This document shows positions 24,400 through 36,611 of a DNA stretch of 64,000 nucleotides, in pieces; the stretch's first letter is position 1, and each line of letters opens with the position of its first letter. The notes beneath the pieces are model-generated. The model was not told the origin of the DNA. It saw only the letters and a program-made list of their open reading frames with translations, and ran no database searches. The translations under genes and the position numbers were made by a program. Source of the stretch: Ralstonia sp. UNC404CL21Col. Its GTDB lineage: Bacteria; Pseudomonadota; Gammaproteobacteria; Burkholderiales; Burkholderiaceae. The stretch is taken from contig NZ_JIBE01000004.1 of the NCBI RefSeq assembly GCF_000620465.1, forward strand, positions 1,364,001-1,428,000, given 5' to 3'.

Positions 24400-25818
24400 T
24401 CAGGCGCGTTTGCGGCCCGGCCGGCGCCCGGCTTCTTGCAGGAAGGCCACCGCACGCGGCTCCGTCGCATAGGCGCTGTTGATGCGCACCCACGGCGAGA
24501 CCTCCAGGTTCGGGCGGAAGTAATGGCCGGGCGCCAGCGTCACGCCGTGCTTTTCTGCGGTGGCTGCCAGATCGCGCGAATCGTCCACGTGCGGCACACG
24601 CGCCCAGAGGAAGTTGCCGCCCGACGGATGGTGAAACACCTCCCAGCCGGCATCGGCCAACACATCCAGCGAGGCGATGACAGAGTCACCTGCGCGGTGG
24701 CGCAGCCGCTCCACATATTTGCGATAGGCACCGCGTTCCAGCAGCGTGCTGACCACGGCCTCGGCAAAGCGCGAACCGCCCACGCTGGTCAGCATCTTCA
24801 CGTTGGTCAGGTCATGTACCAGCTCGCGCTTGGCAATCAGGTAACCCACCGGCAGCGATGCCGACACCGTCTTGGAAAACCCGCCCACGTAGATCACATG
24901 ATCCAGCTGGTCCAGCGTGGCAAGCCGTGCGGTCGGATCGGCCTGCAGGTCGGCAAAGATGTCGTCTTCGAGAAACGTGAAGCCGTGGCGCCGCGCCAGT
25001 TCAAGCAGGCGGAACGCGACCGGCGGTGACACCACCGAGCCCGTGGGGTTCTGCAGCACGCTGTTGATGAAGAACAGCTTGGGACGGTGCTCGCGCAGCA
25101 TTGCTTCGGTGACTTCCACGTCGGGCCCGTCGCTGCGGCGCGGAATGCCGACCAGCTTCACGCCGTGCAGCCGCAGCAGCCCAAACACGGTGTAGTAGCC
25201 AGGGTCTTCCACGAAGACCGTGTCGCCCGGTTTGAGCAGGTGCCGCATCACCAGGTCGATGGCCTGGCTCGTACCGGCGGTGATGAGCACATTGGGCTGG
25301 TCGGCCTGGATGCCGAGCTGGCGGGCACGCATCATGACCTGATGCCGCAGCGCCGTGTTGCCCAGCGGGGAGGAATAGTCGATCACCGCGTGCGTGTCGG
25401 TGCGCGACACCTGGCGGATGGCCTGCGTCAGGCCGTCGACGTCGCGCCAGTCGGCCGGCACGAACCCGCCGCCGAGCTTGAGCATGCCGTCGGGGTAGCT
25501 GAACTGCTCGAAGATGTGTTTCGACTCGGCCTCCGCGCGGCGCGGGTCGGACCAGCCGCGCCCGTCGCGCCCGGTCAGGTTGCTCTCCGCCACGTAGAAG
25601 CCGGAGCCGTGACGCGAGTCCAGCAGCCCCAGCGAGACCAGCCGGTCATACGCCTCGATCACGGGGAAGCGGCTGATGCCGTAGTCGGCCGCCAGTTGCC
25701 GGATCGACGGCAGCTTGGCGCCGGGGCGCACGTCGTTGTCGCGAATCCACGCCTGCACGCCGGCCACGATCTGGTCGGCAATCGGTACGCGGGTACTGGC
25801 ATCGATGAGGAGTTTCAT
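24400..25818 (-). CDS. MocR family regulator (GntR HTH fused to aminotransferase-like domain)
   Basis: A 472-residue protein with an N-terminal GntR winged helix (about 10-75, GAKLPSIRQLAADYGISRFPVIEAYDRLVSLG) and a C-terminal fold-type-I PLP domain (about 110-460) with Lys316 in VYVGGFSKTVSAS, the PLP-binding lysine. MocR proteins use PLP or an amino-acid aldimine as effector; PdxR and TauR are studied members. It is divergent from the encapsulin operon. Its promoter carries the same box array as the TauD/DUF2917 promoter (36632-36663), so a TauR-like sulfur role is a reasonable inference. Confidence 0.88.
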   Translation of the reverse strand: MKLLIDASTRVPIADQIVAGVQAWIRDNDVRPGAKLPSIRQLAADYGISRFPVIEAYDRLVSLGLLDSRHGSGFYVAESNLTGRDGRGWSDPRRAEAESKHIFEQFSYPDGMLKLGGGFVPADWRDVDGLTQAIRQVSRTDTHAVIDYSSPLGNTALRHQVMMRARQLGIQADQPNVLITAGTSQAIDLVMRHLLKPGDTVFVEDPGYYTVFGLLRLHGVKLVGIPRRSDGPDVEVTEAMLREHRPKLFFINSVLQNPTGSVVSPPVAFRLLELARRHGFTFLEDDIFADLQADPTARLATLDQLDHVIYVGGFSKTVSASLPVGYLIAKRELVHDLTNVKMLTSVGGSRFAEAVVSTLLERGAYRKYVERLRHRAGDSVIASLDVLADAGWEVFHHPSGGNFLWARVPHVDDSRDLAATAEKHGVTLAPGHYFRPNLEVSPWVRINSAYATEPRAVAFLQEAGRRPGRKRA

Positions 25819-25852
25819 GGCGCGGGTCGGGTCGGTGGGGCGGAAGATGCCG

Positions 25853-25884
25853 AACAGTCATCTCAAACTGTTCAGCAGTGTTCG
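25853..25884. promoter_or_regulatory. three-box array in the MocR/encapsulin promoter
   Basis: GAACAGT (25853-25859), 7 bases, AACTGTTC (25867-25874), 2 bases, CAGTGTTC (25877-25884). The last two are direct repeats with a 10-base period. Spacing and sequence match the array at 36632-36663. It lies 35-66 bases upstream of the MocR start. Confidence 0.75.
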
Positions 25885-26067
25885 TATTGTAGTGGGACCG
25901 CGTGCAACGGAAAGCCGATCGCCCGGGCGAGGCGCCGGGGGCTCGCTTATGCATTGGGCAACCATCGAAGGGCGGTTTTATTCGTTTTGGCAAATATCAC
26001 CCACGGCTAGAGTGGGCTTGTCCGTCACTCATTGCGCGCTCGTTGCGATTATTCAGTCGGAGGTTCG

Positions 26068-26586
26068 ATGTCTGCCACCACCATTCAAACTGCGCCACGC
26101 GACCCGGCTGTGCAGGCCGTGCTCGATAGCGTTCTGTCTACACCCTCGTCAACGCTGCTGGAGCGTGCACGCAGCCACGCCAGCGCGCAGGGGTTGCGCT
26201 ATGCAGGCGGCCTGACGCCGGCTGAAGCGTGGGCCTTGGTCAGCCGTGGCGATGCCGTACTCGTGGACGTACGTACCGCAGAAGAACGGAAGTTCGTGGG
26301 TCGTGTGCCGGATACCCCGCATGCGGCGTGGCAGACCGGCCCTGCCATGATCAAGAACCCACGCTTCCTGCGCGAGCTGGAGAAAGCGGCGCCCAAGAGC
26401 GCCGTGGTGCTGCTGCTGTGCCGCAGTGGCAAACGCTCTGCTGCCGCTGCGGAAGCCGCCACCGCCGCCGGATTCCAGAACGTGTTCAACGTTCTGGAAG
26501 GCTTCGAGGGCGACCTCGACGAACAGCAGCAGCGCGGCGAAGCCGGCGGCTGGCGCCGCTGGGGCCTGCCCTGGCAGCAGGACTGA
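26068..26586 (+). CDS. rhodanese-domain protein of the encapsulin operon
   Basis: A 172-residue single rhodanese domain (about 45-165) with the active-site loop CRSGKRS starting at Cys118, which would carry a persulfide. It lacks a signal peptide, so it is cytoplasmic. It is the first gene of a rhodanese, serine O-acetyltransferase, encapsulin and cysteine desulfurase operon; rhodaneses recur in family 2A encapsulin operons. It probably moves sulfane sulfur to or from the compartment. GGAGG lies upstream of the 26068 start; the MocR gene is divergent. Confidence 0.88.
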   Translation: MSATTIQTAPRDPAVQAVLDSVLSTPSSTLLERARSHASAQGLRYAGGLTPAEAWALVSRGDAVLVDVRTAEERKFVGRVPDTPHAAWQTGPAMIKNPRFLRELEKAAPKSAVVLLLCRSGKRSAAAAEAATAAGFQNVFNVLEGFEGDLDEQQQRGEAGGWRRWGLPWQQD

Positions 26587-26634
26587 GCGCCGCGGCACCG
26601 CCAACAACCAAACCAACAAAACAGGGGAGCGACG

Positions 26635-27669
26635 ATGAGCGATCGCGTCATCGCGGGGAGGCCTGCGCCCGCGCACGACCCAGGCTGGCAATTGGACCGC
26701 ATCGTCAGCGAGCTGCGTGCGGCCCGGGCCGATTGGCGCGCCCGCAACGGCCGTACCGAAGTCACGGGCCGCGAGTTGCCCTCGCGCGAGGCGGTGCGGC
26801 AGATTCTCGAGGCGCTGCGTGGGGCACTGTTCCCGATGCGGCTCGGCCCCACGGACCTGCGTGAAGAAAGCGAAGACTTCTACGTCGGCCATACGCTCGA
26901 CGCGGCACTCAATGCGCTCGTCGCACAGGTGCGGCTGGAGCTGCGTCACACGGTGCGCCAGGCGCGTGCCGTGGATCGCGATCCCGATGCCGAGGCGGTG
27001 CAACTCGTGCGCGACTTCGCGTCGGCACTGCCCACGCTGCGTCGCCTGCTCGACACCGACGTGCTGGCTGCCTACCACGGTGATCCGGCAGCGCGCAGCG
27101 TCGACGAGGTGCTGCTGTGCTACCCCGGCATCCTCGCCGTCATCCATCACCGGATTGCCCATCACCTGTACCGCGCAGGCTTGCCGCTGCTCGCGCGCAT
27201 GGTGGCCGAGACTGCGCATGCCGACACCGGCATCGACATCCACCCTGGCGCGCAGATCGGCAGCGGCTTCTTCATCGACCACGGTACGGGCGTGGTGATT
27301 GGTGAGACCGCCGTGATTGGCGAGCGCGTTCGTATCTACCAGGCGGTGACGCTGGGGGCCAAGCGCTTTTCCGCCGATGCCGATGGCCACCTCGAGAAGG
27401 GCGCCCCACGCCACCCGGTGGTGGAAGACGACGTCGTCATCTACGCCGGCGCGACCATCCTCGGCCGGATCACCATCGGGCGCGGTTCCTCCATTGGCGG
27501 CAACGTGTGGCTCACGCGCAGCGTGCCGCCCGGCAGCAGCGTCACCCAGGCAAACGTGCAGAGCGGCATTCAGGACGGCGTTCAGGACGCCGTTCGGGAG
27601 GGCGTTCGGGACCCTCGGCCGCACACGCACAGCGACAGCGAGGCACACCCCGCCCGCCGATCCGTCTGA
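26635..27669 (+). CDS. epsC: serine O-acetyltransferase (EpsC type)
   Basis: The 344-residue product has an N-terminal helical domain (about 20-190) and a left-handed beta-helix of hexapeptide repeats (about 195-300). The active-site stretch is FIDHGTGVVIGETAVIG. It makes O-acetylserine from serine and acetyl-CoA, the acceptor for sulfide in cysteine synthesis. The C-terminal tail has a four-residue repeat series (VQSG, IQDG, VQDA, VREG, VRDP) from a 12-base tandem repeat at 27556-27615, unusual for the family. It lies 48 bases after the rhodanese gene and 81 before the shell gene. Confidence 0.88.
   Translation: MSDRVIAGRPAPAHDPGWQLDRIVSELRAARADWRARNGRTEVTGRELPSREAVRQILEALRGALFPMRLGPTDLREESEDFYVGHTLDAALNALVAQVRLELRHTVRQARAVDRDPDAEAVQLVRDFASALPTLRRLLDTDVLAAYHGDPAARSVDEVLLCYPGILAVIHHRIAHHLYRAGLPLLARMVAETAHADTGIDIHPGAQIGSGFFIDHGTGVVIGETAVIGERVRIYQAVTLGAKRFSADADGHLEKGAPRHPVVEDDVVIYAGATILGRITIGRGSSIGGNVWLTRSVPPGSSVTQANVQSGIQDGVQDAVREGVRDPRPHTHSDSEAHPARRSV
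27556..27615 (+). repeat. 12-base tandem repeat in the epsC 3' end
   Basis: Five degenerate 12-base units related to GTTCAGGACGGC encode tetrapeptides of pattern V(Q/R)(D/E)(G/A). Confidence 0.7.
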
Positions 27670-27750
27670 CACGCCTTTCGCACCGGTTTTATCCACCGCA
27701 CCCGCCAGAGAAACGGGGGCATTTTTTCAAATGAAGTTGGGAGTCATTGC

Positions 27751-28689
27751 ATGGCAGAAGCAGATACCCAGGACGTGCGCACTGCGCTAGGCGACAGCGC
27801 CGCACGCCAATTGGCGAACGCGACCAAGACCGTTCCGCAGCTTTCCACCATCAGCCCGCGCTGGCTGGTGCACCTGCTGCAGTGGCAGCCGGTGGAGGCC
27901 GGCATCTTCCGCCTGAACCGCGTGAAAAATCCGCGCGATGTGCGCGTTGCCTGCTCGCAGCGCGACGAGGCAGAGCTGCCGCAGACCTTTGTCGACTACG
28001 ACGAACATCCGCGCGAGTACTTCCTCAACGCGGTCACGACGGTGCTGGACGTGCATACGCGTGTCTCCGATCTGTACAGCAGCCCGCACGACCAGATTCA
28101 GCAGCAGCTGCGCCTGACCATCGAGACCATCAAGGAGCGTCAGGAAAGCGAGCTGATCAACAACCCCGACTACGGCCTGCTGGCCAACGTGGATGAAACG
28201 CAGCGCATCTCCACGCTCACCGGCGCGCCCACGCCTGACGATCTGGACGAGCTGATCACCAAGGTCTGGAAAGAGCCGGCGTTCTTCCTTGCGCATCCGC
28301 TGGCGATTGCCGCGTTTGGCCGCGAATGCACGCGCCGTGGTGTGCCGCCGCCGACCGTCAGCCTGTTCGGCTCGCAGTTCCTGACGTGGCGCGGCCTGCC
28401 GCTGATTCCGTCGGACAAGGTGCCCATCGACGAGAACGGCCGCACGAAGATCCTCCTGCTGCGCGTGGGCGACAAGCGCCAGGGCGTGGTCGGCCTGTAT
28501 CAGCCGGGTGTGGCGGGCGAGCAGAGCCCGGGGCTGTCGGTGCGCTTCATGGGCATCAACCGGAACGCCATCGCGTCGTATCTGATTTCGCTGTATTGCT
28601 CGCTGGCCGTGCTGACCGAAGACGCGCTGGCAGTGCTCGAAGACGTGGAGATCGGCAAGTACCATGACTACCCCGACACCTACAAGTAA
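27751..28689 (+). CDS. family 2A encapsulin shell protein
   Basis: A 312-residue HK97-fold shell protein of encapsulin family 2A, without the cyclic-nucleotide-binding insertion that marks family 2B. Recognisable stretches are RQLANATKTVPQLSTISPRWLVHLLQW at residues 14-40, the E-loop region near YSSPHDQIQQQLRLTIE, and the C-terminal ASYLISLYCSLAVLTEDALAVLEDV. Such shells self-assemble around a cysteine desulfurase cargo and have been linked to elemental-sulfur storage. The adjacent downstream gene is exactly such a desulfurase, overlapping by 26 bases; rhodanese and serine acetyltransferase lie upstream. Confidence 0.92.
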   Translation: MAEADTQDVRTALGDSAARQLANATKTVPQLSTISPRWLVHLLQWQPVEAGIFRLNRVKNPRDVRVACSQRDEAELPQTFVDYDEHPREYFLNAVTTVLDVHTRVSDLYSSPHDQIQQQLRLTIETIKERQESELINNPDYGLLANVDETQRISTLTGAPTPDDLDELITKVWKEPAFFLAHPLAIAAFGRECTRRGVPPPTVSLFGSQFLTWRGLPLIPSDKVPIDENGRTKILLLRVGDKRQGVVGLYQPGVAGEQSPGLSVRFMGINRNAIASYLISLYCSLAVLTEDALAVLEDVEIGKYHDYPDTYK

Positions 28690-30532
28690 TGCGCCCGGCG
28701 TGAGCGGTCTGGCACCGCCGGCGGGTTTGCCTGACCCGGCCGCGCTGGCGCAGTTGGCCAACGCGTTCTTCACGGCGCTGCCCGGTCGTGAACCCGAACC
28801 CGAGCCGGCACCCGCTATCGATCTGACACCGGTGGGCGCATCACCGCAACTCAGTGCGTTGCCCGTTGCGGAGACCGCACCGAGTGCACCACAGGTGCCT
28901 GTGCTGGGCGTGCCGACGCAGTACGCGGCAGCATTGCCGCAGGCGGCATCTGGCCACGGTTTGCCGGGGCCTGCGCATTCCGTCTCGGCACCGAGTTCGC
29001 CGTACTACTTCCTGGGTGAGGCGAGCGGCTATCAGTCCGCTGCGCCGCATGCGGGGGTGGCGGCGTCGGAGGTGGGTGTGCCGGAGGATCGTGTCTCGGC
29101 GCAGCCGTTTCAGCTGCCGGGCACCGATGCGCTGGCACGGCTGATCGATGGCGCATCCGGCACGCCGCCTGCGGGGCCGGAGGCATTGCGGCAGCCCGGC
29201 GGGGCTGCGCAGGCGGGGCAGTTCTACTTCCTCGCGCCAGCCGGCGGTCCGGCCGCACCCGCGCTGGAGGCACCGCGCAATACGAGGGACGAGCAGAGCC
29301 ACCAGCCGCATCGCGTTGGCGCCTTCGATGTGCATGCCGTGCGGCGGGATTTTCCGATCCTGGCCGAGCGCGTCAATGGCCGGCCGCTGATCTGGCTGGA
29401 CAACGCTGCCACTACGCACAAGCCGCAAGCGGTGATCGATCGGCTGGCGTATTTCTACGCGCACGAGAACTCCAACATCCACCGCGCGGCGCATGAGTTG
29501 GCCGCGCGTGCGACGGATGCGTACGAGGGTGCCCGCAACAAGGTTGCGCGGTTCCTCGGTGCGCGGTCGGCAAGCGAGATCATCTTCGTGCGCGGCGCCA
29601 CCGAGGCGATCAACCTCGTTGCGCAGACGTTTGGCCGTCAGCACATCGGCGCGGGGGACGAGATCATCGTCTCGCACCTGGAGCACCACGCCAACATCGT
29701 GCCGTGGCAGCAGCTGGCCGCGCAGGTGGGCGCGCGCATCCGCGTGATTCCGGTGGATGACAGCGGCCAGGTGCTGCTGGATGAGTACCGCAAGCTGTTG
29801 AGCAGCCGGACGAAGCTGGTGTCTGTCACGCAGGTGTCGAATGCGCTGGGGACGGTGACGCCCGTGCAGGAGATCATCGCACTGGCGCATGCGGCCGGCG
29901 CGCGCGTGCTGGTGGACGGCGCGCAGGCGGTCTCGCACTTGCGTGTGAACGTGCAGGCGCTGGACGCGGATTTTTACGTGTTCTCCGGCCACAAGGTCTT
30001 CGGCCCGACGGGCATTGGCGTGGTCTACGGCAAGCAGGATCTGCTCGACACGCTGCCGCCGTGGCAGGGCGGCGGCAACATGATTGCCGACGTCACGTTC
30101 GAGAAGACGCTGTACCAGCCCGCGCCCGCGCGCTTTGAAGCCGGCACCGGCAACATCGCCGACGCGGTGGGGCTGGGCGCTGCGCTCGATTACGTCGAGC
30201 GCATCGGCCTGGAACACATCGCGCGCTACGAGCACGACCTGCTGGTCTATGCCACGCATGGGCTGTCGCGCATTCCTGGTGTGCGGTTGATCGGCACGGC
30301 TGCCAACAAGGCCAGCGTGCTGTCGTTCACGCTGGCCGGGTACCGCACGGAAGAAGTGGGCGCGGCGCTCAACCGCGAAGGCATTGCCGTACGGTCGGGC
30401 CATCACTGCGCGCAGCCGATCCTGCGGCGCTTTGGGGTGGAGGCGACGGTGCGGCCATCCCTGGCGTTCTACAACACGTGCGAGGAGGTGGATGAACTCG
30501 TGCGCGTGGTGGGGGCGCTGGCTCGGCGGTGA
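28664..30532 (+). CDS. cysteine desulfurase with N-terminal cargo-loading domain
   Basis: The 622-residue protein has two parts. Residues 1-220 are disordered, rich in Pro, Ala and Gly, and hold short islands: DPAALAQLANAFF (24-36), PYYFLGEASGYQ (113-124), ALARLIDGA (156-164) and QFYFLAPAGG (186-195). Residues 222-622 are a SufS-type PLP cysteine desulfurase with Lys444 (SGHKVFGPTG) and catalytic Cys582 (SGHHCAQPIL). The N-terminal extension is the cargo-loading type seen in family 2A encapsulin systems. The enzyme takes sulfur from cysteine and, in the shell, is thought to feed sulfur storage. Confidence 0.9.
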   Translation: MTTPTPTSNAPGVSGLAPPAGLPDPAALAQLANAFFTALPGREPEPEPAPAIDLTPVGASPQLSALPVAETAPSAPQVPVLGVPTQYAAALPQAASGHGLPGPAHSVSAPSSPYYFLGEASGYQSAAPHAGVAASEVGVPEDRVSAQPFQLPGTDALARLIDGASGTPPAGPEALRQPGGAAQAGQFYFLAPAGGPAAPALEAPRNTRDEQSHQPHRVGAFDVHAVRRDFPILAERVNGRPLIWLDNAATTHKPQAVIDRLAYFYAHENSNIHRAAHELAARATDAYEGARNKVARFLGARSASEIIFVRGATEAINLVAQTFGRQHIGAGDEIIVSHLEHHANIVPWQQLAAQVGARIRVIPVDDSGQVLLDEYRKLLSSRTKLVSVTQVSNALGTVTPVQEIIALAHAAGARVLVDGAQAVSHLRVNVQALDADFYVFSGHKVFGPTGIGVVYGKQDLLDTLPPWQGGGNMIADVTFEKTLYQPAPARFEAGTGNIADAVGLGAALDYVERIGLEHIARYEHDLLVYATHGLSRIPGVRLIGTAANKASVLSFTLAGYRTEEVGAALNREGIAVRSGHHCAQPILRRFGVEATVRPSLAFYNTCEEVDELVRVVGALARR

Positions 30533-36506: not shown

Positions 36507-36611
36507 GGCGGCTCCGGCAGAAATGGCGATGGATCATGCTAGCCACCCGATGCCCAGCCGAAAACGAACGGTTTGACATATCCAAATGCAGTTCTGTCGG
36601 TCATGCCGATG

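Follow-up and report, generated by a model that had tools for sequence, protein, structure and literature searches.

The 64,000-nucleotide stretch of Ralstonia sp. UNC404CL21Col analysed here (the window; positions 1,364,001 to 1,428,000 of contig NZ_JIBE01000004.1, within a host genome of 5.09 Mb in 11 contigs) carries a four-gene operon that very probably encodes a family 2A encapsulin nanocompartment, loaded with a cysteine desulfurase (CyD), accumulating sulfur and switched on when sulfate is scarce. The initial annotation had placed four genes here, in the order rhodanese, serine O-acetyltransferase (SAT), shell and CyD with the last two overlapping, and all four open reading frames (ORFs) were recovered at those coordinates on the plus strand, the shell and CyD frames sharing 26 nucleotides (28664-28689). 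Identification relied on the curated Pfam and NCBIfam profiles with their model cut-offs, and gave the following genes (lengths in amino acids, aa):

26068..26586, plus strand: single-domain rhodanese, 172 aa (Pfam PF00581, 46.4 bits; active-site loop CRSGKR)
26635..27669, plus strand: SAT of EpsC type, 344 aa (Pfam Hexapep, 41.5 bits; NCBIfam EpsC)
27751..28689, plus strand: family 2A encapsulin shell, 312 aa (encap_f2a, 551.9 bits; Pfam SrpI-like, 'Type 2A encapsulin shell', 363.9 bits)
28664..30532, plus strand: cargo CyD, 622 aa (f2_encap_cargo1, 921.9 bits; Pfam Aminotran_5, 492.3 bits)

This four-gene feature is far beyond chance. The shell aligns with encap_f2a (cut-off 380) in one continuous match to profile positions 1-295. 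It also scores over the family 2B model (441.6 bits, cut-off 400), where its best stretch covers only positions 210-449 of 450, and the inserted nucleotide-binding domain that marks family 2B is absent from this protein of 312 aa with its single continuous 2A match. Judged by these profiles, the shell is a family 2A encapsulin. Its best solved homologue is an Acinetobacter baumannii encapsulin (PDB 8t6r; 576 bits, E 1.4e-172, covering shell residues 5-312), which reportedly has a desulfurase cargo, and the next is SrpI of Synechococcus elongatus (PDB 6x8m; 505.6 bits, E 2.8e-151). The A. baumannii protein is assigned to family 2A in PMC11946847, and the paper on 8t6r claims sulfur storage in its title (Benisch, Andreas and Giessen 2024, Sci Adv eadk9345).

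The initial annotation had named a family 2A shell with a cargo desulfurase and had proposed a profile search as a check; in that search the cut-offs of both encap_f2a and f2_encap_cargo1 (800 for the latter) were exceeded, and the operon order proved conserved, as described below. The cargo profile covers CyD residues 1-617, N-terminal region included. The CyD core is of SufS type (TIGR01979, 561.7 bits, cut-off 475.1), and Cys582 in RSGHHCAQP, the HHAN motif and the H443-K444 pair are invariant across 18 aligned CyDs. Four proteins in the genome match PF00266 with more than 100 bits, namely CyD (494.3), IscS, an IscS/NifS-like protein and a protein taken by eye as SerC (for which Pfam gives Aminotran_5 only), and of these none but CyD is of SufS type. 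The rhodanese and SAT identities of the annotation were likewise borne out. The SAT passes the EpsC model (167.7 bits, cut-off 150) and falls below the cysE cut-off (173.3 against 210.65), and a second SAT elsewhere in the genome (contig C3) passes both (EpsC 226.9, cysE 240.3 bits), so that the EpsC name means only 'serine acetyltransferase' here. Cys118, within the CRSGKR loop, is the sole cysteine of the rhodanese, whose ATG at 26068 sits within a longer mechanical ORF with a TTG start at 26032.

To describe the operon among its relatives we used the best 80 of at least 559 relatives (the nearest loci), in which, among named records, Ralstonia pickettii H2Cu5 came first with a shell identity of 100% and Ralstonia sp. 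A12 followed with 97%; entries from the window's own genome may be missing from this set. Rhodanese-SAT-shell-CyD was the commonest order (53 of the 80 nearest loci, comprising 51 plus two Ralstonia loci flanked by MocR). Twelve loci carried all four genes and a cysteine synthase (11 between rhodanese and SAT, one after CyD), eight had rhodanese-shell-CyD with no SAT found, and seven were incomplete at contig ends, one of these with a cysteine synthase, which brings the cysteine synthase total to 13/80; the enzyme of one locus (L060) was confirmed by NCBIfam cysK (456.7 bits over 350.95). The rhodanese was present in 75/80, and the remaining five are located at contig ends. Among 398 genomes drawn from across the phylum, 17 matched the shell model, all over the cut-off. 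Four of them matched in two pieces in long frames of 471-520 aa, barely over the cut-off (381.9-387.9 bits), in contrast to the window shell; these four are probably family 2B, leaving 13. Twelve of those 13 (window excluded) plus G028 formed a wider sample of 13 fetched loci: six with the four-gene order, four with SAT-shell-CyD, and one each with rhodanese-shell-CyD, CysK-SAT-shell-CyD and shell-CyD-SAT. Published counts list 1281 family 2A cysteine desulfurase (CD) operons, 813 of them in Proteobacteria, with SAT and rhodanese as accessory genes (Andreas and Giessen 2021, PMC8346489). The window operon shows no essential difference from the CD operons described there and is an ordinary member of this type, which is already in print; cysteine synthase appears in that account as the next pathway enzyme and is not named there as an operon member, whereas 13/80 nearest loci here include it.

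In two of the loci with no SAT found, L031 (7120-7674, a SZAS-78 metagenome-assembled genome) and L034 (7249-7803, Zoogloea), rhodanese and shell are separated by an ORF whose end, by eye, is an XRE-like helix-turn-helix.

The annotation had also described a CyD N terminus of about 220 residues as disordered and of cargo-loading type. This region is present, is rich in Pro, Ala and Gly, a composition that fits disorder, and carries loading motifs. In an AlphaFold2 model the 10-residue means of the predicted local distance difference test (pLDDT) are 27-49 over residues 1-220, with two short helices at 25-37 and 154-163; overall the model is of modest quality (mean 60.5, predicted template modelling score 0.59, some core segments below 50), so the low N-terminal values support disorder and do not prove it. 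Residues 1 to about 220 are probably a disordered loading region. Motif counts cover the 88 CyDs, out of 90, for which an N terminus could be delimited; the motifs were defined after viewing the sequences, and the counts were set against residue shuffles:

28745..28771, plus strand: cargo motif A, LAQLANAFF, CyD residues 28-36, inside helix 25-37 (A-type, L..LA..FF, in 84/88; shuffle maximum 4)
28994..29014, plus strand: cargo motif B, SSPYYFL, CyD residues 111-117 (PYYFL-type in 54/88; shuffle maximum 1)
29222..29233, plus strand: second YF-L motif, FYFL, CyD residues 187-190 (at least two YF-L motifs in 61/88; shuffle maximum 1)

Two further classes, VP..YA.ALP-type (42/88) and LPG...L-type (52/88), complete a set of five, for all of which the shuffled counts stayed at or below 4. 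All five are present in the window CyD, where helix 154-163 starts inside the LPG motif. A close comparison is the Synechococcus elongatus SrpI/CyD system (PDB 6x8m, 6x8t; PMC8049743), likewise a family 2A shell with a cargo CyD; according to that paper its CyD has a disordered N-terminal domain, CyD is loaded through its N terminus, the system is upregulated under sulfur starvation and the SrpI particle measures about 25 nm. The motifs in print there, LARLANEFFS and AASPYYFLDG, resemble LAQLANAFF and SSPYYFL of the window, and the window cargo has more conserved motifs than these two. The systems differ in that the Synechococcus shell gene is plasmid-borne and in that the word rhodanese is absent from the main text of PMC8049743. 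Among the other CyDs, L091 (8956-10935) carries an N terminus with a duplicated VP..YA.ALP plus PYYFL unit (YAAALP ... TPYYFLGE), and the CyD matches of L028 (8896-10708) and L063 (9064-10258) are broken into pieces, reflecting a broken gene or a sequencing error.

The proposed link to sulfate scarcity rests on a spaced element upstream of the rhodanese gene:

25981..26013, plus strand: TTCGTT (25981-25986)-N21-TAGAGT (26008-26013), with TTTTA in front; the operon's putative activator box/-35 region and -10

It lies on the operon side of a 249-bp intergenic region, and the block is found in 8/8 Ralstonia genomes that hold the operon and at 0/8 sites without it. Ninety-eight sequences were compared (the 80 nearest loci, the 13 fetched loci, four further Ralstonia and the window), of which 87 had a rhodanese match and enough DNA. 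In a comparison of 87 rhodaneses, 85 keep CRSG. The pattern TT[CGT]GTT-N21-TA, which was composed after inspecting the upstream regions so that its count is not blind, occurred in 61 of the 87 regions, whereas 200 dinucleotide shuffles yielded 1.2 on average and never more than 6. With the spacing set to 20 or 22 there was a single match each time, and the remaining lengths between 15 and 27 yielded 0 to 7 of 87. Janthinobacterium lividum (L072) is one of the relatives that carry both operon and element. The 87 include close relatives (seven Ralstonia; L093 and L161 are apparently the same contig), and the spacers of the 61 positives fall into 23 sequence clusters, which indicates that the spacing is kept while the spacer sequence changes. 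Eight of the regions lacking the element carry a TTATTTTTT box instead. A 103-base search for a second copy of the promoter block gave no further match of more than 21 bases. Taken by itself, the short string TTATTCGTTT was tried as a regulon marker and rejected as uninformative, with two matches in the genome, the other lying by ahpC/ahpF (by eye).

Elsewhere in the genome the strict form TTCGTT-N21-TAG lies upstream of genes for sulfate and sulfonate scavenging. Its seven matches are those at the operon, sbp, ssuA, tauD and a MarR-type gene recognised by eye, and two within long ORFs; the Sbp and SsuA family names come from profile matches, and the tauD site is the following:

36539..36568 (C4:1400539-1400568), minus strand: TTCGTT-N21-TAG upstream of tauD, from the genome pattern scan

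A permease gene that is divergent from a CysB-family gene (559.5 bits over 402), ahead of the cysI cluster, has a TTGGTT form upstream. The sbp, tauD and permease sites were first spotted by eye, while the ssuA site came blind from the genome scan. Across the 16 Ralstonia genomes, by eye, the sbp form recurs in 16/16, the operon form in 8/8 holders and 0/8 others, and the tauD and ssuA forms in nine each. We infer from these sites that the operon is under putative sulfur-limitation control by a CysB/SsuR-type LysR activator. No paper joining an encapsulin with CysB was found among open-licence papers, and the account of family 2A CD operons in PMC8346489 does not discuss their promoters. A tentative extension, which we hold as possible but somewhat less likely than not, is that across many Betaproteobacteria this element with its exact 21-bp spacing makes the family 2A encapsulin part of the regulon for sulfate and sulfonate scavenging, and that, with its own SAT and in some lineages cysteine synthase, it may serve to make cysteine and bank elemental sulfur (S0) under sulfur limitation, as a buffer for erratic supply and not an overflow store. 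The element would then connect the compartment with sulfur scavenging across many betaproteobacteria and offer a clue to the conditions under which cells build a sulfur store, and to the reason.

Two other positions of the element were recorded in Ralstonia. TTCGTT-N21-TAG at L188 (G000:C4:759923-759952) is just upstream of the by-eye MarR-type gene, which has no known sulfur link, and recurs in 11/16 genomes. At L195, L216 and L218, the three inspected by eye, the element is upstream of a GntR-like and then a flavoprotein-like gene (6/16 genomes).

The initial annotation had further drawn support from a MocR regulator and a MetNIQ/TauD sulfur region beside the operon. These neighbours are real: profiles confirmed MocR, MetN, MetQ and a TauD-type protein, MetI is an inner-membrane component of a transporter, and an M20 peptidase gene comes next. 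MetN, MetQ and TauD fall below the NCBIfam equivalog/subfamily cut-offs and are therefore named at family level only. The features on the MocR side are:

24400..25818, minus strand: MocR-type GntR/aminotransferase regulator (Pfam), a neighbour outside the system
25852..25891, minus strand: GAACAGT/ACTGTTC-type boxes by the MocR promoter, with similar boxes at empty sites and in holders

As support for the shell system MocR failed, because it is fixed in all 16 Ralstonia genomes, only eight of which have the shell, and the boxes are present whether or not the operon is there. Seven of the shell-less genomes have MocR immediately next to the M20 peptidase gene, with neither operon nor MetNIQ at that site. 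In the eighth (G013) MetNIQ stays, and a CyD-like fragment (window 29441-29643, 77% identity) lies between MocR and MetNIQ (L131, 4523-4727), a relic of a lost operon. MetNIQ is variably linked: the holders G012 and G003 have the operon without MetNIQ at the site, and the sequence is cut in G008 and in the G006 contig on the MocR side. The sulfur link is better shown by the element common to sbp, ssuA and tauD than by this context. Repeated loss would be the simplest reading of the patchy distribution, because there is one fixed site and a relic; replacement by recombination between the conserved flanks may also account for it. The single site and the relic set up a natural contrast between relatives that have the compartment and relatives that lack it, and, with the spaced element, they are the parts that a specialist might not expect.

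The divergent layout of mocR and the operon, 249 bp apart, could suggest that MocR controls it. As a dedicated operon regulator MocR was ruled out by the shell-less genomes that keep both MocR and boxes, and among the best 80 of at least 559 loci it lies within 4 kb of the shell only in the two Ralstonia loci long enough; control by the adjacent MocR is thus very improbable, and the boxes would be its own putative operator, not that of the operon.

In the mechanism that we favour, sulfate scarcity would turn the operon on from a promoter type common to some sulfate/sulfonate-scavenging genes, presumably through the CysB/SsuR-type activator. SAT would supply O-acetylserine, from which cysteine synthase would form cysteine. 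The multi-motif N terminus would draw CyD into the self-assembling shell, where CyD would move sulfur from cysteine onto Cys582. By analogy with a related compartment, for which this is reported, sulfur may then build up within the shell (encapsulin sulfur storage is stated in PMC12407261), and the rhodanese would most likely shift persulfide sulfur at or outside the shell.

Several observations weigh against this interpretation. Twenty-six of the 87 upstream regions lack the element (eight Pseudomonas/Azotobacter-type or other gammaproteobacterial, three Aquitalea and 15 mixed, with many betaproteobacteria), as do the regions inspected upstream of cysI and metQ in this genome. Strict matches number seven in the genome against 31 for the reversed pattern, and 130 against 553 in the 16 Ralstonia genomes; with fewer matches than the control the pattern is not enriched overall, and its weight comes only from position and conservation. 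In the wider sample the rhodanese was not found by tblastn with the window protein in 6/13 loci, of which one is close to the start of its contig. When presence and absence in Ralstonia are mapped on a tree of mocR and the M20 gene (for G006 and G008 mocR only), they need at least five changes, one node being weak (0.434), which implies that the operon is dispensable.

The rhodanese is also the crux of another explanation, already proposed in PMC8346489, in which the compartment is a sulfur-transfer device and not a store: the shell would restrict which acceptors reach CyD, and the rhodanese would take the persulfide for cofactor or Fe-S synthesis. Its presence in 75/80 nearest loci (the five exceptions being at contig ends) and the retention of CRSG fit this, but the six wider-sample loci in which it was not found, the genome's own IscS and the storage claim in the title of the 2024 paper speak against it, and we consider a transfer device unlikely. 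The compartment might instead guard cytosolic cysteine, encapsulation stopping CyD from wasting it at sulfur limitation, a possibility raised in PMC8049743 and compatible with the promoter element common to scavenging genes; this would leave the SAT, and the cysteine synthase of 13/80 nearest loci, in the same gene row unexplained, and appears improbable. Since encapsulins have the HK97 capsid fold in common (PMC8346489), we also weighed whether the shell gene is a phage capsid gene, domesticated or left as a remnant, that has no compartment function. The shell score far above the 2A cut-off, the gene row kept across beta- and gammaproteobacteria and the intact cargo gene are sequence evidence strongly opposed to it, and the chance of a mere capsid gene is negligible. 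A sulfur-accumulating compartment under sulfate control is the reading that we prefer.

An Rfam scan of the window gave no match at the gathering threshold, and a tRNA-linked island was ruled out, no tRNA having been found within the window. In L017, L023, L026, L028 and L163 (four Aquitalea and one other), the operon is immediately preceded by MetN/MetI/MetQ-like genes, much as several Ralstonia have MetNIQ downstream of it. L116 (1129-2709, minus strand) encodes an IscS/NifS-like desulfurase whose C-terminal extension resembles a separate domain with a CRSGNR loop.

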